From assembly GCA_945865695.1 (NCBI GenBank), contig CAMBFX010000008.1, positions 1-42,081 on the forward strand: a stretch of DNA of 42,081 nucleotides. The letters run 5' to 3'. Numbering within the stretch: the stretch's first letter is position 1; the number at the start of each line of letters is the position of its first letter. This DNA is from Chryseobacterium gleum (GTDB lineage Bacteria; Bacteroidota; Bacteroidia; Flavobacteriales_D; UBA2798). Below are positions 2,189-25,278 of this stretch, in pieces. The notes beneath the pieces were generated by a model, which made no database searches, had not been told where the DNA came from, and saw nothing but the letters and a program-made list of their open reading frames with translations. The position numbers and the translations under genes were made by a program.

Positions 2189-4591
2189 TCATTTAATTTT
2201 TTTATCCTCATTGCCAGAGTCACTATAACTTTTGCCATAGCCGTAACCATATCCATAACCATAACCGTAACCATAACCATAGCTATATTTACTGTAATAG
2301 TATTTAAATTTGCTTGGGACAACACCATTTAAAATCACCGCACAATTAGTTAAAGCATTTCTCTCAATGATATTCTCAATAAAATTTACCTCTTGCCTTC
2401 TAGTTGTTTTAGTATTAAAAACAAAAATATTGATATCAGAATGTTTCATCATCACTAAAGCATCTGAAATCAAACCAACTGGTGGAGTATCAATAATGAT
2501 AAAATCATATTGCTCTCTAGCTCGATCTAAAAACAATTTTAAAGAATCGTATAAAACCATTTCAGAAGGGTTAGGTGGAGTTGGGCCACATAATGCAAGA
2601 TCAAGAAATTCATTATCCGTTTTTGTAATCACATTTTCGAATGTTGATGCATTAATTAAAAAAGAGGTTATCCCTGAAGAGGACCCCTTAAATGAAAATG
2701 CTTTATAAATTCTTGGCTTATGCAAATCTAATTCAACTAATAAAACTTTTTTATTTGATTTTGAAATGATGTTAGCTAAATTGATAGAGGAAAATGTTTT
2801 ACCTTCGCCTGGGGCCACTGAGGTTATCAATACAACTTTCGAGCTTTTGGCTGGACTGAAATATTGTAAATTAGTTCTTATAGAGCGAAAAGATTCTGTG
2901 GTTGCAGATTTAGGGTCATTACCCATAGAAATAGCATCAGCATTCTCTTTTAATCTAAATACCTGCCCTAATAATGGAATTTTAGTGATATCAGCTAATT
3001 CAGTTAGAGTGGAGATTTTTCTTACGAATGCTTCCCTCCAAAAAACATACAGGGATGAAATCAAAAAACCAATCAAAGAAAAATAAATAATGTATTTATT
3101 TTTATTCGGTCTCGTTTTACCCATTGCCTGTGGCTCTTCAATTACCTTCGACTCGGGAATAATCCCTGCCTTAGCAATGATAGTGGAAAATTTCTTTTCC
3201 TGGAGATACATGTATAATTTTTCATTAATACTTAGTCTACGTGTAATGCTTTGCATCGCTCTACTTGTAATAGGTAATCTTTGTAATTTCCCTTTGAAAA
3301 TATCTATTTCTGTTTTTATGGAAGCAAGATGATCGCGCACCGCTACTTTAGAATTATCAATATAAGTTAATAAATTTGATTTCAAACCAGCCAGTTTACG
3401 ATCAATTTCTCTCACTCTTAAACTCTTTTCAGTTGAGTTAGTCAAAGCAGCCGTACGTTCCACTTGTAGGCTATATAAGTCTTCAATTGTCTTTTGGAGA
3501 AATCCATCTTTATCTCCTACATAAAAAGAAGAAGGTAAGGTTTTATCAAGTGGGGAGTTCAAGGAATCAATATAGGATTCTAGTGATAGAAGATCCTTAT
3601 ATCTTAAATTCAAACTTCTGTATTGATTATCAAAATCCATCAATTGTTCAAAATATCCTTCTTCTTCTCGACTAAGGTTAATTACAGCATTTTCAGAATT
3701 GAATATTTGAAGCGTGTCTTCAATACCTCCTAAAATATTGGTGACAGTGTCTAATTGTTGGTGAATTGAAAAAATAGTTCGATCACTCACTGTCATTTTC
3801 GAATCAGTCGTTTGTCGAATATAAACCTGACAAAGTGTATCTAAAAACAAAACTGCTCTCTCCTGCAAAATATCCTCAACAGAAACCTGAAGAATACTCG
3901 TGTTTTCTATGTTCTCAATTTGAATGGAGGCAGCGTATTTACTTACGAGATTTTCTCTGTTATGAATAACAAAATAATAATTCACTTTTTTGATGTTTTC
4001 TAAAAAATCCTTAGAAAACCTAAAACTTTTTTCAATGACAATGGATAAATCGCTGTTTTCAATTCTTTCACTAAAATTTGCTTCAATTTCCTTTTTTTCG
4101 TTATTCAATAAATATGAAATTCTGAAAGAATTATCATTTAGAATCTCTATGTATATTTCTTTTTCGTTCAGTGATTTAACCTTACATTTTCCTTTAACCT
4201 CGAATGGAATACCTTTTAATGTTTCAATGGTTCTTATTCGACCTACAATAAAATAACTCACATCAAAATTCAAAACATCCAGTGTTTTTCGCACAATATC
4301 TCTTGATTTAATTACTCTCTGCTCATTTTGGATGTTTTCATAAACCCCATAATAACCTATTGAATTATAGATATTTTCTTGATAATCAAAGGTTTCGTTA
4401 GAGTTAATTAAAATCTGGCAAGAAGCCCCATAATAATCTGGAAGTTTATATGAATAAAAATATCCTACTAAACCAAACATCAACGGAATAGCAAGAAGAT
4501 ACGTAATATTCCGTTGAATGATGCGAAGATATTTTGTTATATCTTTTATATCAAAGAGTTGTTGACTATTTGTATTCGGGGTATTTTTCAT
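2189..4591 (-). CDS. Wzc-like polysaccharide co-polymerase / tyrosine-protein kinase (BY-kinase)
   Basis: Wzz-like N-terminal domain with two TMs, Walker-like VVLITSVAPGEGKTFSSINLA, LLVELDLHKPRI and FIIIDTPPVGLISDA motifs, Tyr-rich C-terminus; ATG at 4591 preferred over the ORF-track start at 4639. Confidence 0.92.
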   Translation of the reverse strand: MKNTPNTNSQQLFDIKDITKYLRIIQRNITYLLAIPLMFGLVGYFYSYKLPDYYGASCQILINSNETFDYQENIYNSIGYYGVYENIQNEQRVIKSRDIVRKTLDVLNFDVSYFIVGRIRTIETLKGIPFEVKGKCKVKSLNEKEIYIEILNDNSFRISYLLNNEKKEIEANFSERIENSDLSIVIEKSFRFSKDFLENIKKVNYYFVIHNRENLVSKYAASIQIENIENTSILQVSVEDILQERAVLFLDTLCQVYIRQTTDSKMTVSDRTIFSIHQQLDTVTNILGGIEDTLQIFNSENAVINLSREEEGYFEQLMDFDNQYRSLNLRYKDLLSLESYIDSLNSPLDKTLPSSFYVGDKDGFLQKTIEDLYSLQVERTAALTNSTEKSLRVREIDRKLAGLKSNLLTYIDNSKVAVRDHLASIKTEIDIFKGKLQRLPITSRAMQSITRRLSINEKLYMYLQEKKFSTIIAKAGIIPESKVIEEPQAMGKTRPNKNKYIIYFSLIGFLISSLYVFWREAFVRKISTLTELADITKIPLLGQVFRLKENADAISMGNDPKSATTESFRSIRTNLQYFSPAKSSKVVLITSVAPGEGKTFSSINLANIISKSNKKVLLVELDLHKPRIYKAFSFKGSSSGITSFLINASTFENVITKTDNEFLDLALCGPTPPNPSEMVLYDSLKLFLDRAREQYDFIIIDTPPVGLISDALVMMKHSDINIFVFNTKTTRRQEVNFIENIIERNALTNCAVILNGVVPSKFKYYYSKYSYGYGYGYGYGYGYGYGKSYSDSGNEDKKIK
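2234..2281 (-). repeat. Hexanucleotide-type tandem repeat encoding (Tyr-Gly)8 in the Wzc tail
   Basis: Eight consecutive [acc/gcc/tcc][ata/gta] codon pairs on + strand = (YG)8 on - strand. Confidence 0.93.
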
Positions 4592-4856
4592 ATTATCATT
4601 ACTACTAGCAAACTTAATAAGAAAATATGGTTTTATCAAAATAGAAAAATAAGACTGGGGTTTATATTTTATTCTCTTAAAACTGTAAAATGGTCACTTA
4701 ATCCGTAAATAAGTGTATCTCATCATCGTTTATATAATAATCCAAAATAGCTATAAACGTTTATAAATAACCCTAAAAATTTCATTCTTTAGCAAGGATA
4801 AAATCCTTTAAACAGTAATATCCATCTTCTTGCCTAAAAAAAAGAAAAAAAATGTA

Positions 4857-4884
4857 TTTGGAACCGTCAATTTTATTATTTTTG
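4857..4884 (+). promoter_or_regulatory. Candidate Bacteroidota sigma-A promoter (TTTG ... TATTTTTG)
   Basis: TTTG at 4857-4860 and TATTTTTG (TAnnTTTG) at 4877-4884 with a 16-nt gap, just upstream of ATG 4900. Confidence 0.5.
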
Positions 4885-4899
4885 TATAAATTGTTTTTT

Positions 4900-7284
4900 A
4901 TGAAAAATTTATTGCTTCTTATATCTATCCTTCTAGGAAGTTTAGATCTTAATGCCGGAACGTTCACTTCATTAGTTAATGGTGCTTGGAATGCAGCAGG
5001 TACATGGACAGCCGTTGGAGATAGTGATAGCATTCCTGATATAGATGACGATGTCACTATACAAGCAATTCATAATGTTACTGTAACGGGTACTGGCCAT
5101 AATTGCCGAAATTTAGTTGCAAATGGCATACTAACACTAACCAGTTCTTGTAATTTAAGTATTTTGGGTAACTATACCTTGAGCGGAAGTGAAGCTGGAT
5201 CAAACGGCTCTCTATCTTTAAAAAGCAGTAATGGTACAATTTCGGGTGCTGGAACTTTTGGTTCTCTGGTACGTTATTCATTTGTAGGGTCAAATTATAC
5301 CATAAGTTCAGAAGTGGTTATTTTAAAATCCATAGTATGTAGTGCAGATAACGGAACCATTACCAACAACGGTTATGTCAGATGGCACCGTATATATGGA
5401 AATAATTCAACTTGGATAAATAATTCCGGCTCGACTTTGGAGTTTGGTTATTATATAATTAACAGTTGGAATGTGACACTTAATACATCAGCAGCAAATA
5501 ATACCGTGATTTACTCTGCAAGCAGTGGATCTCACATTATGAAAGATCCAGTGAATAATACCTATCATCATTTAATTTTTAGAGGAAGCGGCTCTACAAA
5601 AAGGATGCCTGATGATATCATTGTGAATGGTACATTTACGTTAAGTACGAATGCTTCTGCTGATTCCGAAGGATTTGATCTTTATCTCAGAGGTAATTTT
5701 TCAAAACCACAATTTTCGGGTGCTATCACTCAAGATGCAGGAACAGTAATAAATTTTGATGGCACTTCAGCTCAAACAATCACCTCAACAGGCGCTATGA
5801 CTTTAAATGATGTGGTGTTTAATAATCCAACTTCTGTCTCATTTTTAGCAGGTCTATTCAATATTTCAAATTCGATGACGGTATCTCAGGGTACGGCCGT
5901 CTTAGGAACCGCATTGCTTACTCTACAATCGAACGTCACAAAAACCGCCTATATCGGTGAATCCGCAGGAACCATTTCCGGTACCATGACTATACAACGT
6001 TTCGTTAGTGCCCGAGCAGATGGCTATTCCGATATGTCAAGTCCTATTAGCGGATCTACTTTCGCACAACTGGATGACGACTTTGAAATGCTCTTCGTAT
6101 CTGTTGTCACTAACCAAACCTCACCCTCCGCTTTTGGATATAATGAAACCAGTTGGGATTATTTTGCCATTGACCAAACTTCAGATCCTATGAATCCTGG
6201 AGAAGGATATGAGGTTTATTTAGACAATGATGGCTCAAACGCCACTTCTTGGAATGCTACTACTATAGATTTTATAGGTACACCTAACCGTGGAAATATT
6301 ACTTTTCCTGCAACTACAAATAATGACGGTTTTAATTTAGTTGGAAATCCCTACGCATCTTTTATCAGCTTTGCCACTTTCAGGACCAACTCGGGTATTT
6401 CTATGCAAAACTATTTTCAAGTTTATGATGAAACCATTCTTGATTTTACAACTTTGGCAGGTACTGAAAATATTGCACCAGGACAAGGTTTTTGGATAGA
6501 AGCAACCACTGCTGGCTCGGCAACATTTCGAGAAAACAACAAAATTATCTCAACTAGTTCTACTTATCGTAGCATGAATATTAATGAGGATTTATTTGCT
6601 TTGCGTGTTAGTACTCCCTCAGTTACCAATAGATCACATACGTATATTCGCTTTGATGATGCAGCCGCAGAATATTACGAATCCGGTCAAGATATCTCTT
6701 TTTTAAAAGTACCTCAGCCCAATGCCCCTTCTCTTTATACGCTAAGCTCCGATCAAAAAAAATTGAGAATAAACGAAATGAAAGGAAAAGATGAGATGGC
6801 CATTCCTGTTTATTTTAAAGCGGGGATTGATGCGAGTTATACATTGAGTTCTCTAAATATCGAGTCAGCTGAATTAGAAGGATACAAAAAAATTATCCTT
6901 GAGGATAAAAAACTGGGCATTTTTCATGATTTAAAATCTGGTGATTATTCTTTCCTTAGTGAAACTAAAGAAGACACAGATAGATTTATTCTTCACTTAT
7001 ATAAAAATGAATCTCAAGAACTTCTTTCAACAAACAATTTACCTGAAATAAGCTTTACACAATCATTGGAAGGAACATTTGTGAATTTTAATTTATCTGA
7101 AACAAAAAATGCAACAATTTCATTATTTGACATTCTCGGTAAAGAATTAATCTCAACCAGAAGTTTAACTACATCTACTAGCCGTGAAAATATTATTTTA
7201 CCTTCATCTTTTAGCGGAGTTTACTTCATACAGGTAGTAATTGAAGACAAGATTTTTACTCAAAGATTTTTTAAAACACTTTAA
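4900..7284 (+). CDS. Secreted surface protein with T9SS type A C-terminal sorting domain
   Basis: Signal peptide MKNLLLLISILLGSLDLNAG; C-terminal ISLFDILGKELISTRSL...GVYFIQVVIEDKIFTQRFFKTL; ATG 4900 preferred over 4852. Confidence 0.87.
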   Translation: MKNLLLLISILLGSLDLNAGTFTSLVNGAWNAAGTWTAVGDSDSIPDIDDDVTIQAIHNVTVTGTGHNCRNLVANGILTLTSSCNLSILGNYTLSGSEAGSNGSLSLKSSNGTISGAGTFGSLVRYSFVGSNYTISSEVVILKSIVCSADNGTITNNGYVRWHRIYGNNSTWINNSGSTLEFGYYIINSWNVTLNTSAANNTVIYSASSGSHIMKDPVNNTYHHLIFRGSGSTKRMPDDIIVNGTFTLSTNASADSEGFDLYLRGNFSKPQFSGAITQDAGTVINFDGTSAQTITSTGAMTLNDVVFNNPTSVSFLAGLFNISNSMTVSQGTAVLGTALLTLQSNVTKTAYIGESAGTISGTMTIQRFVSARADGYSDMSSPISGSTFAQLDDDFEMLFVSVVTNQTSPSAFGYNETSWDYFAIDQTSDPMNPGEGYEVYLDNDGSNATSWNATTIDFIGTPNRGNITFPATTNNDGFNLVGNPYASFISFATFRTNSGISMQNYFQVYDETILDFTTLAGTENIAPGQGFWIEATTAGSATFRENNKIISTSSTYRSMNINEDLFALRVSTPSVTNRSHTYIRFDDAAAEYYESGQDISFLKVPQPNAPSLYTLSSDQKKLRINEMKGKDEMAIPVYFKAGIDASYTLSSLNIESAELEGYKKIILEDKKLGIFHDLKSGDYSFLSETKEDTDRFILHLYKNESQELLSTNNLPEISFTQSLEGTFVNFNLSETKNATISLFDILGKELISTRSLTTSTSRENIILPSSFSGVYFIQVVIEDKIFTQRFFKTL

Positions 7285-7292
7285 TCCTATTT

Positions 7293-7532
7293 ATGACTAA
7301 AAAGATTTTTATCATTTGTTTTTTACTGTTGCTAGTTAAATCTGGAGACAACCTATATGCTCAGATGGGTATGGGGCCCCCTAACCCTCCTTGCGATAAT
7401 GATCCTTCAACTAATTTCCCTCCATGCCCACAGTCTGTTCCTATTGACGGTGGTATCTTTTTGCTGGTAGGAGCTGGTTTAACATTAGGAGCTCGAAAAT
7501 TATTAAAGAAAAAAGAATCAGATTCACTCTAA
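7293..7532 (+). CDS. Small PID-CTERM-like exosortase substrate (79 aa)
   Basis: Signal peptide, short Pro/Cys-rich mature part, then PIDGG + hydrophobic helix + RKLLKKK tail; directly upstream of the exosortase. Confidence 0.75.
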   Translation: MTKKIFIICFLLLLVKSGDNLYAQMGMGPPNPPCDNDPSTNFPPCPQSVPIDGGIFLLVGAGLTLGARKLLKKKESDSL

Positions 7533-7538
7533 AATAAT

Positions 7539-7562
7539 TCCCGCTTATGGCGGGTTTTTTTT
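7539..7562 (+). terminator. Rho-independent terminator/attenuator between the PID-CTERM gene and the exosortase
   Basis: CCCGC-TTATG-GCGGG hairpin followed by nine T, ending directly at the ATG at 7563. Confidence 0.85.
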
Positions 7563-8129
7563 ATGCTCAAATATTTGAAACAACCTATTTTTTTATTTTT
7601 TCTAAAATTCCTGTTGCTTTATTTCATTTGGTTTTTGTTTTATGAAGTAAGTTTGCGTTCACCAGGAGATTATATTCCGGTAGGAGAATCAGAACCTGAA
7701 AAAACATCTGCGCTTGATTTTTGGGTAATTCAAAAAACAACCGCTACTTCTGCAAATATTTTGAATGCCTTGGGTTATGATGTTTTTTTTGACGGTGGAA
7801 GATCATTAAAAATAAATGATTCGGGAGGTGTCTGGGTGGGTGATTCATGCAATGCGATTTCAATTATGGCTTTATTCGCTGGAATTATTATTTCTTTAAA
7901 TGGTATCTGGTGGCATAAATTAATTTTTATTTTAATCGGGTCATTTTGTATTTGGTTTTTAAATGTTTTACGTCTGATTTTACTTACTATTTTAAGTTGG
8001 AAGGATCCGGCATCGGTAGATTTTAATCATACCTATACTTTTACAATAATTATTTACGCTTTTATTATTGGATGTTGGTTCGTTTGGATACATTTTTTTA
8101 ATGACAAAAAGCGACATGAAATCTCGTAA
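7563..8129 (+). CDS. Exosortase/archaeosortase family protein
   Basis: Multi-TM protein with Cys (VGDSCNAIS), Arg (NVLRLI) and His (NHTYTFTIIIY) in exosortase-triad arrangement. Confidence 0.85.
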   Translation: MLKYLKQPIFLFFLKFLLLYFIWFLFYEVSLRSPGDYIPVGESEPEKTSALDFWVIQKTTATSANILNALGYDVFFDGGRSLKINDSGGVWVGDSCNAISIMALFAGIIISLNGIWWHKLIFILIGSFCIWFLNVLRLILLTILSWKDPASVDFNHTYTFTIIIYAFIIGCWFVWIHFFNDKKRHEIS

Positions 8130-8622
8130 AATATTCTTAATCTCATTTTTTTTAGTGCTTCTAATTGCAACTGGTTTTTTAAGAGAACAACTATTTCGGT
8201 CAATTAACTATATTATTCTTTACCGTGACGTGAATCCATTTATACTTGGTAAATCGTTTATTACCGATTGGATGAATGGATTTTCGAATCATGACTTACT
8301 ACTATTAAAATGGATATTGACATTTGTTTTCTCGTTTGCATTTCTAATCTATACAATCTCATTGTCTAAAATAATATTTCCAAAATCATCATTTACCAGA
8401 TTCATTCTTTTCATATATGCGGCGGGTATTTTTATTTCATGTGCAGCGATTTTGTTAGGAATAATTATACCAACAATAAATGGAAAAACTTACTATTTTG
8501 CGAGATTAATTATGGGAGCAGAACAATCACCGCTACTTTCGGGAATAATAATTATGGCATTGAAAGCTTTTGATAGCATTGAGAATAATTCCACTAAAAA
8601 TTTTAATCAAAAACTGGAATAA
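8116..8622 (+). CDS. Exosortase-associated integral membrane protein
   Basis: Overlaps the exosortase 3' end; several predicted TMs; start 8101 or 8116 more plausible than 8068. Confidence 0.6.
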   Translation: MKSRKIFLISFFLVLLIATGFLREQLFRSINYIILYRDVNPFILGKSFITDWMNGFSNHDLLLLKWILTFVFSFAFLIYTISLSKIIFPKSSFTRFILFIYAAGIFISCAAILLGIIIPTINGKTYYFARLIMGAEQSPLLSGIIIMALKAFDSIENNSTKNFNQKLE

Positions 8623-17881: not shown

Positions 17882-18979
17882 CTAGAAATCCACACATTCC
17901 TTCATTCTCACTTTCTTTATATTTTTAGAACGTGATTGCACTTTTTCAAATAGAACTTTATCATCAAATTCAATCACTAATGCAATTTCATGAGAACCCA
18001 TGCTTGATGTTTTGAGATGAGAAACGGTGAAATCAAAACTATAACATAAACGCATGCGATTATATTTATTGAGCGGTGTGATTAATCCTAAATTAAAAAT
18101 GAATGAATCAAATCTTTTTCCAGCTAAAGAGAAATTTTTATTTCTGAACCAAAATCCTGCATAAATCGGATTTTTCACTGTATTGAAACCGATTTGAAAA
18201 GTTTCTAAATTAGATTGCTTTTCATAAATAAATCCTGGTGAATAAATAATATTATTCGGCCCTAAAAAATTAAACGTAGCATGATAAACTGATTTGATAG
18301 GCAATCTACCATCAATTCCCATTAAAGCATCTTTAGGTTTGGTTAAATGATGGAATGAAGCACCTATAGTGGAAGTCACTTTCGCTTTTTTATCCTCGGA
18401 ATGGCCTAAATTAAATTTCACCACTGCACCTGCACCAAAATCAGGATAAATAATTCTATCATTAGCCGGAATTACGAAATTACTTTCATTTACATTTCCA
18501 AAAACCTGATCTAGATTATCACTAAAAACTAATTGATCCCAATCAATTCTTTTATGAACGAAGGTGGTGGAAAATCCTACTTGTACTTTTAAATTTTTTG
18601 TTTCAATCGGACGATAAGAATAAATACCACCAATTAAATTCGTACGCAAATTTCCTTCGCCTTCATTATCTGAAACCGCAATTACACCTAATCCAGTATT
18701 TCCAACTGCTTGTGCATCGAGTGACATCGAAAAAGTATTAAACTTACTTGGAATGGGTCCCCATAAATTTCTGAAATTACTTCTAAAACGCATACCATCA
18801 TCCAAGGCCGTCATTCCAGGGTTGTAATAAATAGGATTATTAAAAAATTGCGAGAAATTAGGGTCTTGTGCGAGAGAAATGAAAGAAATGAAAAATAAAA
18901 AAATGACTAATGAAGAACGTTTACTCGAATTGAATAATTTTCTTGTAAAAAAAACAATATTTAATTGACGCATTCTCAT
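17882..18979 (-). CDS. PorP/SprF family type IX secretion system outer membrane protein
   Basis: AQDPNFSQFFNNPIYYNPGMTALDDGMRFRSNFRNLWGPIPSKFNTFSMSLD; start at ATG 18979, which forms an ATGA overlap with the upstream stop codon. Confidence 0.92.
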   Translation of the reverse strand: MRMRQLNIVFFTRKLFNSSKRSSLVIFLFFISFISLAQDPNFSQFFNNPIYYNPGMTALDDGMRFRSNFRNLWGPIPSKFNTFSMSLDAQAVGNTGLGVIAVSDNEGEGNLRTNLIGGIYSYRPIETKNLKVQVGFSTTFVHKRIDWDQLVFSDNLDQVFGNVNESNFVIPANDRIIYPDFGAGAVVKFNLGHSEDKKAKVTSTIGASFHHLTKPKDALMGIDGRLPIKSVYHATFNFLGPNNIIYSPGFIYEKQSNLETFQIGFNTVKNPIYAGFWFRNKNFSLAGKRFDSFIFNLGLITPLNKYNRMRLCYSFDFTVSHLKTSSMGSHEIALVIEFDDKVLFEKVQSRSKNIKKVRMKECVDF

Positions 18980-21900
18980 TTTATAATCGTTACGGTTCCT
19001 GATGCGCGATAAAATCCATTTGGATATTTCATTCCTTGCCAAATTTGTTCATCTAAAAATGTTGCATCCACTTTCCATACATAAGCATCTTGAGGTAAAG
19101 GCTGTCCATTAAAAGTTCCATCCCAAGCTTCTTTCGGTCGAGTATTTTCTATCGCTTCGGATTCCCATATTAAATTTCCCCAAGCATCCCAAATGGTGAT
19201 ATGATAGGTTTTCAATCCAACACCTTTGGGTAAAAAATGTGAAACTTCATAAAATGGACTTCCTGGTTGAATAGCATTCGGCACAAATAAACCACCAAAA
19301 TAATCTACATCGATGGTTTGATAAATGGTATCTGTACAACCAAAAGCATTTGTTGCACTCAATAACACTCCGAAAAATCCAAAATAATCGTAACGTTCAA
19401 TTGGATCTACCTCAACCGAAGAATCTCCATTACCAAAATCCCATTCATAACTTATTCCTCCTGAAGTTTCATTGGTAAATTGAATGGTTCCACTATTCGG
19501 ATCTCCAATATTTTGATAGGTAAAATCTGCAATTGGTGTTGGGAAAATTTCAATAACATTATTGATGGTTATTACATCCGTACATCCGCCCAATCCAGTA
19601 ACCGTAAAAGTTACATCGTAAACTCCTGCGTTAACAAAAATATGATTCGGATTTTCATCAGTAGAAGTTTCTCCATCACCAAAATCCCAGAAGTAAGAAA
19701 CTCCATTGGTATCAAGTGATGTAAATGTTACGGGTTGTCCTGCACATCCAGTTGGATTCACAGCGAAATCTGCTTCTGGTGTTGGATAAATAGTATAAAC
19801 AAAAATGCTGGTGTCTAAACATCCATTCAATGAAGTTGCAATTAATGTGATGGTATTACTTCCTGTTGTGGTAAAGGTAACAGAAGGATTATTTAAAACA
19901 GAGGTTTGTCCATTACCAAAATCCCATTCAAATCCAACTGCATTCGTGGAATTATTATTCATATTCACGGTATGCGGAGCGGAGCAGAAACTACTATCAG
20001 AAGGAAAAAATGAGGCCCCCGGTTTTGGAAAAACAGTTACTACTACATAAGCGGTATCTGTACATCCATTGGTACTTTGTGCAGCCAACATCACTGTATA
20101 ATTTCCAGCATTGGTATAAGTATGCGAGGGATTTACTTGGATAGAAGTATTTCCATCACCAAAATTCCAAGCATAAAATGTTGCACCTGTGGTATTATTT
20201 GTAAATGAAACATTCAACGATTCGCAACCTTGCAACGGAGAAGGAACAAACGAAGTAATTGGATTTACTCTAACCACAATATCATGCGAAATACTTGCCA
20301 AACATCCATTTACTAATGAAGTTCCTGTGAGTGTAACGGTATACGTTCCTGTGGCGGGATAAGAATGCGTTGGATTTGTTAATGTAGAAAATGTTCCATC
20401 ACCAAAATCCCAATTAAATCCTCCTACTCCAGTAGATAAATTTGTAAAGGTGAAATTTTGATTCACACAAACCGAATCTGGTACGGTAGAAAAATCTAAT
20501 TGTGGCTCTGGAAAAACAGTTATTTGAACCGAGGTGGTATCAAAACTACAACCATCATTTATCATTAAAGAAACAGTATAAATTCCATCTGTTGCAAAAG
20601 TATGAGTTGGACTTTGGTCAGTAGAAACATTTCCATCACCAAAATCCCAACTATAAAAATTTGCGCCAGTAGAAAACTGTGTGAAATCTACAGTGAGTGG
20701 TGCACAACCTGAAGTTATACTTGTATTAAAAAAAGCATTGACAATATTTGGTAATACCGTAATCGTTTGGGTGGTTGTATCTGCTCCGCACTCATTTTGC
20801 AAAATAAGTGTAATGGTAAAAGTAGTATCTTCTAATCCAGTAACAAATGTATGCGTAAACAAAGAATCAGAAGTATTTCCGAATGTTCCATTGCCAAAAT
20901 CCCAACTAAATGAATCAGGTAATCCCACCGAATTATTCGCAAATATTGGATTGAATGGAGAACAACCTACGCTGAAATCTGTTCCGAATATAGCAGTAGG
21001 AATAGGCATTACCTTTACAGAATCATTATGAAAAACGGTTCCGCAAAAATTGGTTACCTCTAAAGTGATATAATAAGTGGTATCCGCTAAAAAACCTGCA
21101 TTGTAAATTTCATTACCAGGATTGGCATTGGTAGAAGTATTTCCATTTCCGAAATTCCAGAGATAAGAAATTCCAGCACCAGAAGATAAATCGGTGAAGG
21201 CAACTGTTAAAGGTCCACAGGCAGAATCTGGAGCAAGAGAGAAATTTGAAGTGGGCGGCTCTAAAACATTAATGGTAGAAGTCATCACATCATCGCAACC
21301 AAAAGGAGTAGTAGCCGTTAAAGTAATGGTATATGTTCCGATGGATAAATAAATATGTGAAGGATTTTGTTGTAAAGAAGTTCCTCCATCACCGAATGTC
21401 CAACTCCATTGATTGGCAATTGTAGTTGTATTTGTCATTACTGCCGCAGCACCAACACAAACATTAGCGGGATGAGTAAAATTCAATACTGGTAATGGAC
21501 GAACATTAATAATTCTTGTGCTGGAATTCTGGCAACCTGTTACTGGATCCGTTACTGTGTAGGTGATAATGTGTGAACCCACTCCTGCAATTGCTGGATT
21601 AAAAGTTCCGTTAATCACATTGGTAATTCCTGTACCACTCCATGTTCCTCCTAATGGGTTTCCAACTAAATCGAATGGCAAACGGTCAGTACAAGCATTC
21701 AAATCAATTCCAGGATCAATAAAGGGTAAAGGATGAACAATGACTTGCATCTGATCAAAAGTCTGACAGTTTCCTACACCTGTTGTATAAGTCAAAGTAT
21801 AAGTTCCTGCTGTGAGCGGAGAAAAAAGTCCCGCTTGTGAAACACTCGTTCCTGCCCAAAATCCACCTGCAGGCAAACCAGTAAGGTTCAAAGATGGTGA

Positions 21901-24900
21901 ATTCAAACACATTTGCTGATCTAAACCTGCAACAGATGGAACAGGATCAATTACAGTAATTATTTTATCATCCGAATCTGTACATCCAAATCCTACTGTA
22001 GTAAAAGTATAGGTTACCGTAAATGTTCCCACTCCACTCGGAGTAAAAACTCCTCCTGTGGTAATATTTGGTCCGCTCCAAGCTCCTCCTATTGGAGTAG
22101 CAGAAAAATTTATTGGAGCAGGTAAATTACAAATGGTCGTATCTAATCCAACATTTACTGATGGTAAAGCATTAACATCGGCAATTAAATTATCTGTATT
22201 TACACATCCATTCACAACCGATGTAAGTGAATAAGTCAAAGTAAAACTTCCCATTCCTGCTGTTAATGGATTAAAATTATTTCCCGTAATTCCTGTTCCG
22301 CTCCAAGTTCCGCCAATAGGTGTTCCACTAAGAGAAACGATTCCATTATCTACACAAACAGCAAAATCGGGTCCTGCATTTACTACAGGTAAAGCTAAAA
22401 CAGTTATATCAACATTATCGCTAGTCTGACAAGATCCTGCTCCCAATGAATAGGTCAATGTAAATACTCCTACACTTGAAGGAGTAAAAATTCCACCCGC
22501 TGTTACATTTGTTCCGCTCCATGTTCCTCCTGCAGGTAATCCCACTAAATTTAATGCAGAAGAATTTAAGCAAACTTGTGCATTATTTCCTGCATTAAGA
22601 GGAACAGGATTTATTACTGTGATATTTGCATTATCCGATGCAGTACATCCATTTATATTGGTAAAAGTATAAGTAACAGTAAAAACACCTACTCCACTTG
22701 GAGTGAATGCTCCTGCTGGGGTGAGATTGGGCCCACTCCATGTTCCTCCAATGGGAGTTCCATTCAATTGTTCAGCGATAGGTTGATTACAAAATGATAA
22801 ATCTGGTCCTGCAGAAACAGCTGTTGCATTATTCACAGTAATAGTAACTGAGGCAATTCCATCACAACCGGCACCTGTTCCTGTCAAAGTATAGGTAGTA
22901 GTTACACTTGGAGAAACATTTAAAATTGCATTTGTTCCCACTATTGAAGTTCCATCACTCCAAGAATAAGTAGTTCCACCATTTGCAGTGAGCGTAACAT
23001 TTTCTCCTCCACAAATTGTAGTGGTAGAAGGAGTAATAGTAACAATTGGTGCAGGATTAACAACCACATTTGTTGTTGCACTCGCACCCGTACATCCATT
23101 TACTGTTGCAAAAACAGTATAAATTCCTGATGTGGCAGAAGAAGCTGAGGCGATGAAAGGATTTTGGGATACAGAAGAAAAAGTATTCGGTCCACTCCAA
23201 GTATAACTGGCATTAGCGATAGTACTTGCTGTTAAATCTAATTGTTCTCCTTCACAAATAGGAGAATTATTATTCGCAACTGGAGCAGGCGGAGAATTAT
23301 TCACTGTAATATTTTGATTTGCATTTACTGTTCCACATGCATTGGTGACCGAAATATTTATCAAAGGAGTTCCTCCAGCGGAGAACGTAATTGTTCCTGG
23401 AATATTTGCAGAAGAGTTAGTAGGTGTTCCACCGGGAAATGTCCAAGAATAATTAGTGATGGGAGAGGAGCAATCAATATAGTTTGCCACTGGAGTGATA
23501 GATTGCGAAGCACAAATAGAACCAATTGGATTCAATGTTACTTGTGGTGGTCCATTTACAACAACAGGTTTTGTGGCAACAATAGCACCACATGAATTTG
23601 ATATAATCAATTTCACGGTGTAATTTCCCACTTCATTAAAAGTGATTTGCGGCTCAAAAGAATTTGCATTTGTTCCATTGGTAAATGCAAAAGTTCCTGC
23701 GGAAGGAAGACAAGGTGAACCATTAAATAAAACGGTCCAAACATAATTGACATTACAAGTATTTAAAGTAGTAGATGTATTATCAATATTTGATACTAAT
23801 GGAAAACATCCTGTTGAAGCTGAAAGAGTAAATGCTGGCACTGGAGGATTTTCTACGCAAATAACATGACTCTCTGTTGTTGTTGTGCATGAATTTTGCG
23901 CACTTAAACTTACCGTATAAGTTCCAGGTGCGGTAAACGTATGAGCTTGCGATGAGTTGTTCAAAACAGTTGTCGTGGGAGAACCATCACCCCAATTCCA
24001 AACAAAAACAGTGTTTGAACTACAAGCAGAATTATATCCTAAAACGGATGTATTGGTAAATGATACTGATGAGTTTGTACAAACTGGATTCTGAAACGGT
24101 GTAAAATGTGCTTCTGGCCCTGCAAAAATACGAATAGGTGTAACCGTTGCCGTTGAGCTATCACAAGCATTTCTGGCTGTAATAGAAAAAACATATGCGC
24201 CAGCAAGATTAGGACAAGATGATTGAGTATACGTATGACAAATACTAGAGGGAGGAGGATGAGGAAAATACTCAAAAGGAGAACCATCTCCGTAATCTAC
24301 TCGGTAAGTAGTGGAAATATGATTTCCAGCTGCATTTGAGAGAGGAAAACAAAGGGTTATAGGCGCACAACCATTTGTACTACCAGGGTTAGCAACGCCA
24401 ATAGCAGGATTCGTAATATTGGAGACTAATTGTGTTGCTGTGTTCACGCATCCATTTGTTCCAGTAACCGTATACGTCAATGTAAAAATTCCAGCGGTTG
24501 AATAAGTATGTGTTGTACCTCCGCCAGGAAAAGTACCAGCGCCCGCTGTAAAATTGGGAGAACCATCTCCCCAGTTAATCACCCAACTATTATTAGAAGC
24601 TGGAATAGTATTATCAAAAACTTGCAAATTAAAAGTACTTCCATCACAATTTTTAAAATCAGTAAATGGATCTAGCAATGAAGCGCCAGGAGATTGATTC
24701 ACCGTGATAGTATTTGTAACAGTGTCCGTGCAACCAAATAAATTTTGTATCACTAATGAAACATTGAAGGTTTGGGTTCCATTTCCGGGAGCCACAAAAA
24801 GATGGGTTGGATTTTGAAGGGTAGAAGTATTTAAAGAACCAGAAGCTGGATTACCAAAATTCCAAGAATAAGTTAATCCAACTCCTATTGAAGTGTTGGT

Positions 24901-25278
24901 AAAAATCACTGGCGTTGAAGAGCATTGATTATTGGGAGAAGAAGTAAAAGCCGCCGTAGGCACAGGGTTAACATTAACTGTTGCTTGATCATTATCAACA
25001 TTAGCTCCATCATCAACGGTTAAAATATAGGTTGTTGTTGTTGTAGCCGTACAAATTGGGTTCGGGCAATTAGTGCATGATAATCCCGCAGCAGGGGACC
25101 AATTGTAAGTATAAGTTCCAGTTCCTCCTATGGCAGATAGAATGCCACCTAAAGTAACGGAGTCTCCAACGCAAATATTTTCATTAGGCCCTGCATTTAC
25201 ATTGAGTGGTTGAGCTATCATCTCCTTAGAAAAGAAAGAAAATACAGTTAGAATAACAATATAAAGAAATTTTCTCAT
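18976..25278 (-). CDS. Giant (2100 aa) PKD-repeat surface protein with gliding-motility/T9SS type B C-terminal domain
   Basis: Signal peptide; many PKD motifs (WDFGDG.S..NP.H.Y); C-terminus LFVPNAIQPG...YHITIWDAWGNLIWES...WDGTFNGQPLPQDAYVWKVDA. Confidence 0.93.
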   Translation of the reverse strand: MRKFLYIVILTVFSFFSKEMIAQPLNVNAGPNENICVGDSVTLGGILSAIGGTGTYTYNWSPAAGLSCTNCPNPICTATTTTTYILTVDDGANVDNDQATVNVNPVPTAAFTSSPNNQCSSTPVIFTNTSIGVGLTYSWNFGNPASGSLNTSTLQNPTHLFVAPGNGTQTFNVSLVIQNLFGCTDTVTNTITVNQSPGASLLDPFTDFKNCDGSTFNLQVFDNTIPASNNSWVINWGDGSPNFTAGAGTFPGGGTTHTYSTAGIFTLTYTVTGTNGCVNTATQLVSNITNPAIGVANPGSTNGCAPITLCFPLSNAAGNHISTTYRVDYGDGSPFEYFPHPPPSSICHTYTQSSCPNLAGAYVFSITARNACDSSTATVTPIRIFAGPEAHFTPFQNPVCTNSSVSFTNTSVLGYNSACSSNTVFVWNWGDGSPTTTVLNNSSQAHTFTAPGTYTVSLSAQNSCTTTTESHVICVENPPVPAFTLSASTGCFPLVSNIDNTSTTLNTCNVNYVWTVLFNGSPCLPSAGTFAFTNGTNANSFEPQITFNEVGNYTVKLIISNSCGAIVATKPVVVNGPPQVTLNPIGSICASQSITPVANYIDCSSPITNYSWTFPGGTPTNSSANIPGTITFSAGGTPLINISVTNACGTVNANQNITVNNSPPAPVANNNSPICEGEQLDLTASTIANASYTWSGPNTFSSVSQNPFIASASSATSGIYTVFATVNGCTGASATTNVVVNPAPIVTITPSTTTICGGENVTLTANGGTTYSWSDGTSIVGTNAILNVSPSVTTTYTLTGTGAGCDGIASVTITVNNATAVSAGPDLSFCNQPIAEQLNGTPIGGTWSGPNLTPAGAFTPSGVGVFTVTYTFTNINGCTASDNANITVINPVPLNAGNNAQVCLNSSALNLVGLPAGGTWSGTNVTAGGIFTPSSVGVFTLTYSLGAGSCQTSDNVDITVLALPVVNAGPDFAVCVDNGIVSLSGTPIGGTWSGTGITGNNFNPLTAGMGSFTLTYSLTSVVNGCVNTDNLIADVNALPSVNVGLDTTICNLPAPINFSATPIGGAWSGPNITTGGVFTPSGVGTFTVTYTFTTVGFGCTDSDDKIITVIDPVPSVAGLDQQMCLNSPSLNLTGLPAGGFWAGTSVSQAGLFSPLTAGTYTLTYTTGVGNCQTFDQMQVIVHPLPFIDPGIDLNACTDRLPFDLVGNPLGGTWSGTGITNVINGTFNPAIAGVGSHIITYTVTDPVTGCQNSSTRIINVRPLPVLNFTHPANVCVGAAAVMTNTTTIANQWSWTFGDGGTSLQQNPSHIYLSIGTYTITLTATTPFGCDDVMTSTINVLEPPTSNFSLAPDSACGPLTVAFTDLSSGAGISYLWNFGNGNTSTNANPGNEIYNAGFLADTTYYITLEVTNFCGTVFHNDSVKVMPIPTAIFGTDFSVGCSPFNPIFANNSVGLPDSFSWDFGNGTFGNTSDSLFTHTFVTGLEDTTFTITLILQNECGADTTTQTITVLPNIVNAFFNTSITSGCAPLTVDFTQFSTGANFYSWDFGDGNVSTDQSPTHTFATDGIYTVSLMINDGCSFDTTSVQITVFPEPQLDFSTVPDSVCVNQNFTFTNLSTGVGGFNWDFGDGTFSTLTNPTHSYPATGTYTVTLTGTSLVNGCLASISHDIVVRVNPITSFVPSPLQGCESLNVSFTNNTTGATFYAWNFGDGNTSIQVNPSHTYTNAGNYTVMLAAQSTNGCTDTAYVVVTVFPKPGASFFPSDSSFCSAPHTVNMNNNSTNAVGFEWDFGNGQTSVLNNPSVTFTTTGSNTITLIATSLNGCLDTSIFVYTIYPTPEADFAVNPTGCAGQPVTFTSLDTNGVSYFWDFGDGETSTDENPNHIFVNAGVYDVTFTVTGLGGCTDVITINNVIEIFPTPIADFTYQNIGDPNSGTIQFTNETSGGISYEWDFGNGDSSVEVDPIERYDYFGFFGVLLSATNAFGCTDTIYQTIDVDYFGGLFVPNAIQPGSPFYEVSHFLPKGVGLKTYHITIWDAWGNLIWESEAIENTRPKEAWDGTFNGQPLPQDAYVWKVDATFLDEQIWQGMKYPNGFYRASGTVTIIK
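19430..21430 (-). repeat. Nine tandem PKD-type repeats, ~240-bp period
   Basis: W(D/N/T)FG(N/D)G motifs at about 19433, 19678, 19916, 20157, 20399, 20639, 20897, 21147, 21393. Confidence 0.85.
21630..22800 (-). repeat. Six tandem ~73-aa repeats (L.G.P.GG.W.G....G.F.P...G..T.TY)
   Basis: GTWSG-type core codons recur near 21633, 21853, 22074, 22297, 22511, 22731 (~220-bp period). Confidence 0.85.

Follow-up and report, generated by a model that had tools for sequence, protein, structure and literature searches.

At positions 7293–8622 of the window (the whole 42,081-nt stretch of DNA that was analysed), a gene for a preprotein of only 79 aa with a C-terminal sorting tail is followed by genes for a predicted exosortase and a small membrane protein. 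The first-pass annotation took the preprotein for a dedicated substrate of this exosortase, which raises the question of whether such an enzyme can be devoted to one miniature target, whether the arrangement recurs among relatives, and what so small a sorted product might do. The facts of that account have been confirmed and most of its interpretation holds; the trio it described is already represented in NCBIfam.

The three-gene module and its surroundings

The preprotein is encoded on the forward strand at 7293–7532. It had been described as a signal peptide, a proline-rich part with two Cys and a PIDGG-TM-KKK tail, and profile analysis bears this out: the NCBI model PID_CTERM (NF046080) matches residues 49–73 of 79 with 33.4 bits against a cut-off of 26, and in a profile search of the genome the sorting signal (7437–7511, forward strand) scored 35.2 bits across all 25 model positions. 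The signal peptide, assigned by eye, ends in LYA, with Q as the next residue. The mature part, QMGMGPPNPPCDNDPSTNFPPCPQSV, consists of 26 residues, eight of them Pro and two Cys, and is followed by PIDGG, a transmembrane helix and then RKLLKKK. Its segment MGMGPPNPPC is unchanged across three genomes of the window's family. Between this gene and that of the exosortase (xrtX) lies an intrinsic-terminator-like hairpin, CCCGCTTATGGCGGG followed by eight T (7540–7562, forward strand), which stops just 5′ of the xrtX start and could yield more substrate than enzyme. A like hairpin occupies the same place in another locus of the family (L038); since one was present in only 9 of 75 loci order-wide, the terminator was rejected as a general stoichiometry device.

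The exosortase itself (7563–8129, forward strand; 188 aa) had been recognised by Cys, Arg and His residues occurring in order, a reading that held when profiles and alignments were applied. Both general profiles match above their cut-offs, PF09721 with 35.5 (cut-off 25.7) and TIGR04178 with 40.8 (cut-off 23), and the triad of C96, R137 (in an NxxR motif, N134–R137) and H156 aligns with columns that are invariant in 23 Flavobacterium-type XrtF sequences. The top specific model was XrtX (NF046081) with 136.2 bits, under its cut-off of 170, and the XrtF model came second (75 bits, cut-off 90). In tree analysis the enzyme falls within a 54-row XrtX set (98% SH-aLRT), apart from XrtF, and joins orthologues of its own family at 87% in a quick tree where it forms a long branch; a quick tree also places XrtF as the sister group of XrtX. 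The AlphaFold model of the enzyme has a mean pLDDT of 80. A fold search with this model against solved structures gave zero matches at E ≤ 0.001, and a sequence search for a solved structure of a relative found none. Judged by its sequence, the window enzyme is a member of the exosortase superfamily within the XrtX group, and cleavage of a C-terminal tag is its predicted activity.

All three ORFs lie where the annotation had located them. The third (8101–8622, forward strand) is open from a TTG at 8068; on a reading of the sequence, its start is likelier the ATG at 8101 or 8116, giving an overlap with the exosortase gene of 29 or 14 nt, respectively. Its product matches the model for XrtX-associated membrane proteins (NF046082) with 34 bits, under the cut-off of 75, and a homologue adjoins xrtX in 88 of the 89 loci of the window's order. 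This constant adjacency is the part of the proposed accessory subunit that stood firm, and because of it an accessory role is a fair supposition. In one genome of the same family (G001; loci L037/L124), a toxin-antitoxin-like pair of small genes separates xrtX from the associated gene, and the mini-substrate gene is found about 7 kb from xrtX on the opposite strand.

The best matches, the gene order and the tail are all common to the window module and the NCBIfam trio NF046081, NF046080 and NF046082, but the enzyme and third protein of the window score under the respective cut-offs, and the enzyme sits on its long branch. As far as the literature search reached, neither PID-CTERM nor exosortase X is named in any paper. 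The module is a divergent copy of a curated, apparently unpublished NCBIfam system.

The neighbourhood includes a gene for a Wzc-type polysaccharide tyrosine autokinase (2189–4639, reverse strand; TIGR01007, 147.7 bits, cut-off 108), which is divergent from the module; the genes after it encode ABC transporters of the kind that exports polysaccharide. A homologue in the same divergent arrangement flanks 71 of the 89 XrtX loci, so that the cell-surface and polysaccharide context is stronger than the annotation had noted, and these neighbours are in keeping with the established association of exosortases with exopolysaccharide loci (PMC1569441). By eye, the C-terminus of the kinase (2189–2400, reverse strand) reads YGYGYGYG and resembles the tyrosine cluster of bacterial tyrosine kinases. 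Only 8 nt 5′ of the mini-substrate gene ends a gene for a T9SS type A cargo protein (4852–7284, forward strand; TIGR04183, 40.9 bits). The two genes possibly share one transcript; a cargo gene is also found 5′ of the mini-substrate gene in two loci of the same family (L004/L038) and is not general; it is to be taken as a neighbour, not as a proven part of the system. Further away, at 17882–25278 on the reverse strand, a huge repeat-rich surface protein is encoded, followed by a gene that seems, by eye, to be PorP/SprF-like.

Pairing of enzyme and tail among relatives

The draft genome that holds the window (96.6% complete) has one exosortase match and one PID-CTERM match, the latter remaining single even with E-values up to 10. 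This is one enzyme and one target per genome, the sense in which a system is called dedicated (PMC3237569), and it bears out the earlier claim, as do the relatives in the order, which usually have one match of each kind. More than one PID match per genome does occur, in few genomes of the order. Among 299 genomes of the order, an XrtX-type enzyme was matched in 138 and a PID tail (E ≤ 0.001) in 103; 101 had both, 37 the enzyme only, 2 the tail only and 159 neither. A class-wide sample gave 69 with both, 23 with the enzyme only, one with the tail only and 56 with neither. Some of the 37 genomes of the order with an enzyme and no PID match at E ≤ 0.001 are incomplete, and some enzyme-only genomes perhaps carry divergent tails.

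The order of substrate, exosortase and membrane protein, which the annotation had put forward as a point to check in relatives, is conserved along with the pairing. In 75 of the 89 loci of the order the small protein is encoded directly 5′ of xrtX, with a median gap of 9 nt and often with the genes overlapping or abutting, and the third gene is present at the frequency given above. Neither of the two outcomes named by the annotation as fatal to its account appeared: the exosortase profiles do match a protein with the triad, and the small protein is not missing beside orthologous enzymes.

At the level of predicted proteins, miniature substrates are the rule for PID-CTERM tails: no match above the cut-off lies in an open frame longer than 196 codons in the order or 153 codons in the class sample. 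Taken from the first residue past the signal peptide up to PID, the mature part of the 75 adjacent mini-substrates of the order measures 22 residues in the median, with 33% proline. It begins with Gln in 69 of these, contains at least two Cys in all 75, and its commonest form is PPCWPPPC[IV]-P[IV]DGG (29 of 75). The exposed N-terminal Gln agrees with the Bacteroidetes Q-rule (PMC5837995). Ten close pairs of XrtX-type mini-substrate genes were compared, and nine gave dN/dS values of about 0.02–0.24; in the tenth, synonymous sites were saturated. Pairs from Flavobacteriaceae, which were more distant, gave 0.08–0.48. This purifying selection means that the genes are real and constrained. The sorting signals, catalytic triad, pairing, synteny and coding selection of the module are thereby established as features of the sequence.

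Two variations were seen elsewhere. In loci L129–L133 (family f10, for the most part genus g34), the PID-CTERM proteins have a mature part that is longer and rich in Cys, and they are encoded away from xrtX. A second PID mini-protein, in the style of those of Flavobacteriaceae, is found in genome G279 (L127) on a 4.9-kb contig and is possibly contamination.

A candidate substrate for XrtF in Flavobacteriaceae

In F. johnsoniae, deletion of xrtF (Fjoh_1448) or of its associated gene (Fjoh_1449) lowers biofilm formation and colonisation and abolishes zorbs, and the substrates of XrtF were left to later work (PMC10936215). No mini-substrate gene adjoined xrtF in the four XrtF loci that were read, and a genome-wide search was therefore carried out. 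One Flavobacteriaceae genome had a PID-CTERM mini-protein elsewhere, and a relaxed search recovered similar short proteins in Flavobacterium. The NCBI PID_CTERM model proved too noisy at a relaxed E-value on Flavobacterium, and profiles of our own, built from these finds, were used instead, on 81 Flavobacterium genomes and then on 400 genomes of Flavobacteriaceae, with F. limi as the genome representing the genus of F. johnsoniae.

The protein recovered is a proline-rich, PID-like preprotein of 60–75 aa. Among the 400 genomes, 221 had both XrtF and this mini-protein, 14 XrtF only, 6 the mini-protein only and 159 neither, absences being less certain than presences because scoring was limited to 15 candidates per genome. 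Tallied per genus, there were 141 with both, one with XrtF only, 5 with the mini-protein only and 90 with neither. Fisher tests of the co-occurrences reported here and in the preceding section gave p-values of 3e-45, 5e-21 and 1e-85, which disregard shared ancestry and hence overstate the independent evidence, an effect that tallies by genus lessen and do not abolish.

In 40 Flavobacteriaceae loci that were read, every mini-protein has a signal peptide, a mature part, PID, a helix and a basic tail. The mature part has a median of 16 residues and 56% proline, and usually takes the form ...PPPPxPPPPPGL; Cys is present in one of the 40. The idea of a disulphide, raised by the annotation for the window protein, thus survives for the adjacent mini-substrates of the window's order, with their constant Cys pair, and was rejected as a system-wide principle. 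Instead of adjoining xrtF, the gene has ribE and pdxA as neighbours in 38 of the 40 loci, and likewise in most Flavobacterium loci. From its signals and distribution, the ribE-pdxA mini-protein is likely to be the missing XrtF substrate. Some Flavobacterium genomes (L301, L302, L317, L325) have a second type of mini-protein (QGGPPPPGLPDEGSDLPIDGHC...), encoded off the ribE-pdxA site.

The XrtF system, with its exosortase F system-associated protein (TIGR04128; Fjoh_1448/1449), has the same triad and the same two-gene enzyme block as the XrtX system, and, as found here, it is likewise co-distributed with a tiny PID-like preprotein. It differs in that this preprotein is unlinked to the enzyme, Cys-free and encoded at the ribE-pdxA site. 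The XrtX- and XrtF-associated proteins are only weakly alike (hhalign probability 47%).

The PID_CTERM model gave a weak match in 20 of 25 aligned Flavobacterium-type mini-proteins, and of four that were scanned, three scored 13–19 bits (cut-off 26) and one had no match, so that the NCBI model would miss most XrtF-type mini-proteins. Such drift of the tails, together with the existence of PITG and PIPG tails, the second mini-protein type in Flavobacterium and the 37 enzyme-only genomes of the order, gives some room to the idea that the exosortase serves other substrates with tails unseen by the PID model and that the mini-protein is not the important one. This is nevertheless unlikely to hold, given that the window genome yields its single PID match even under the most permissive E-values and that mini-protein and enzyme stay neighbours at most loci.

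Proposed route and role of the peptide

We consider it probable that the window module is a dedicated XrtX-type sorting system, which anchors a tiny peptide at the cell surface, and that XrtF acts likewise on the ribE-pdxA mini-protein. The preprotein would be exported by Sec, and signal peptidase I would leave Gln at its N-terminus, which would probably be cyclised to pyroglutamate, as is usual in Bacteroidota. The protein would stay in the inner membrane by its C-terminal helix, so placed that PIDGG is close to the outer face. There XrtX, aided by the product of the third gene, would cut at the PID signal by means of its Cys/Arg/His site and pass on the proline-rich peptide of about 26 residues, the most likely acceptor being a component of the membrane or envelope. 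In this way the peptide would become anchored to the cell surface at the place of polysaccharide export, and XrtF of Flavobacteriaceae would treat its proline-rich mini-protein in the same way. It is the family of the enzyme that makes cleavage, transfer to an acceptor and a function of the peptide plausible, and it is the F. johnsoniae phenotype, together with the polysaccharide neighbours, that points to a role in surface attachment.

The mini-protein might instead remain uncut and serve the exosortase as a lasting small subunit or as a regulator, comparable to other tiny membrane proteins; its size, its close and often overlapping position next to the enzyme gene, and the second membrane protein near xrtX at almost all loci would suit this. 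A signal peptide combined with a typical tripartite sorting tail would not, nor would the Flavobacteriaceae mini-protein, which is unlinked to xrtF yet co-distributed with it, and the clade with larger Cys-rich mature parts on the same tail fits cargo better, so that a subunit seems quite improbable. Release of the cut peptide as a signal or pheromone, for which its small size, its mature sequence strongly conserved within the family and an N-terminal Gln protectable as pyroglutamate (PMC5837995) could be cited, is very improbable, since the conserved neighbours include no receptor or regulator and point instead to polysaccharide export, and known relatives of the enzyme leave their substrates anchored (PMC11980579).

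Even under the preferred reading, that of a peptide anchored at the surface, one common job for the mature peptides is not assured, because their make-up differs between those with a Cys pair and the Cys-free ones of Flavobacteriaceae. It could be speculated that across the Bacteroidia the main task of XrtX and XrtF is the processing of a single tiny proline-rich peptide in each cell, and that this peptide becomes attached to a lipid or polysaccharide of the envelope which the neighbouring Wzc/ABC-transporter system makes or exports, serving there as a minimal anchor or organiser of surface glycans, although so wide a proposal must be regarded as rather unlikely.

Several known sorting systems offer parallels. 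The PEP-CTERM/EpsH exosortase shares the tripartite tail, the Cys/Arg/His motifs and the link to exopolysaccharide, but PEP-CTERM systems have several targets (PMC1569441), whereas the window has one tiny target and a PID motif. In GlyGly-CTERM/rhombosortase pairs the enzyme adjoins a single target, as here, but rhombosortase is an unrelated serine protease (PMC3237569). In the MYXO-CTERM tail the helix is preceded by a Cys, a feature shared with the window's order, but myxosortase is an unrelated CAAX-type enzyme (PMC11980579) and Cys is not universal in PID mini-proteins.

The module deserves attention for the general rule of miniature substrates and for the candidate substrate of XrtF. The adjacent pair in the window shows what an XrtF-type substrate looks like, and a profile on the mini-protein pattern gives one candidate per Flavobacteriaceae genome, at a fixed site beside pdxA and in nearly the same genomes as XrtF. 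The question of the XrtF substrate is thereby reduced to the deletion of a single gene, and products of just 12–30 residues are seen to be enough to occupy an entire class of sorting enzymes.
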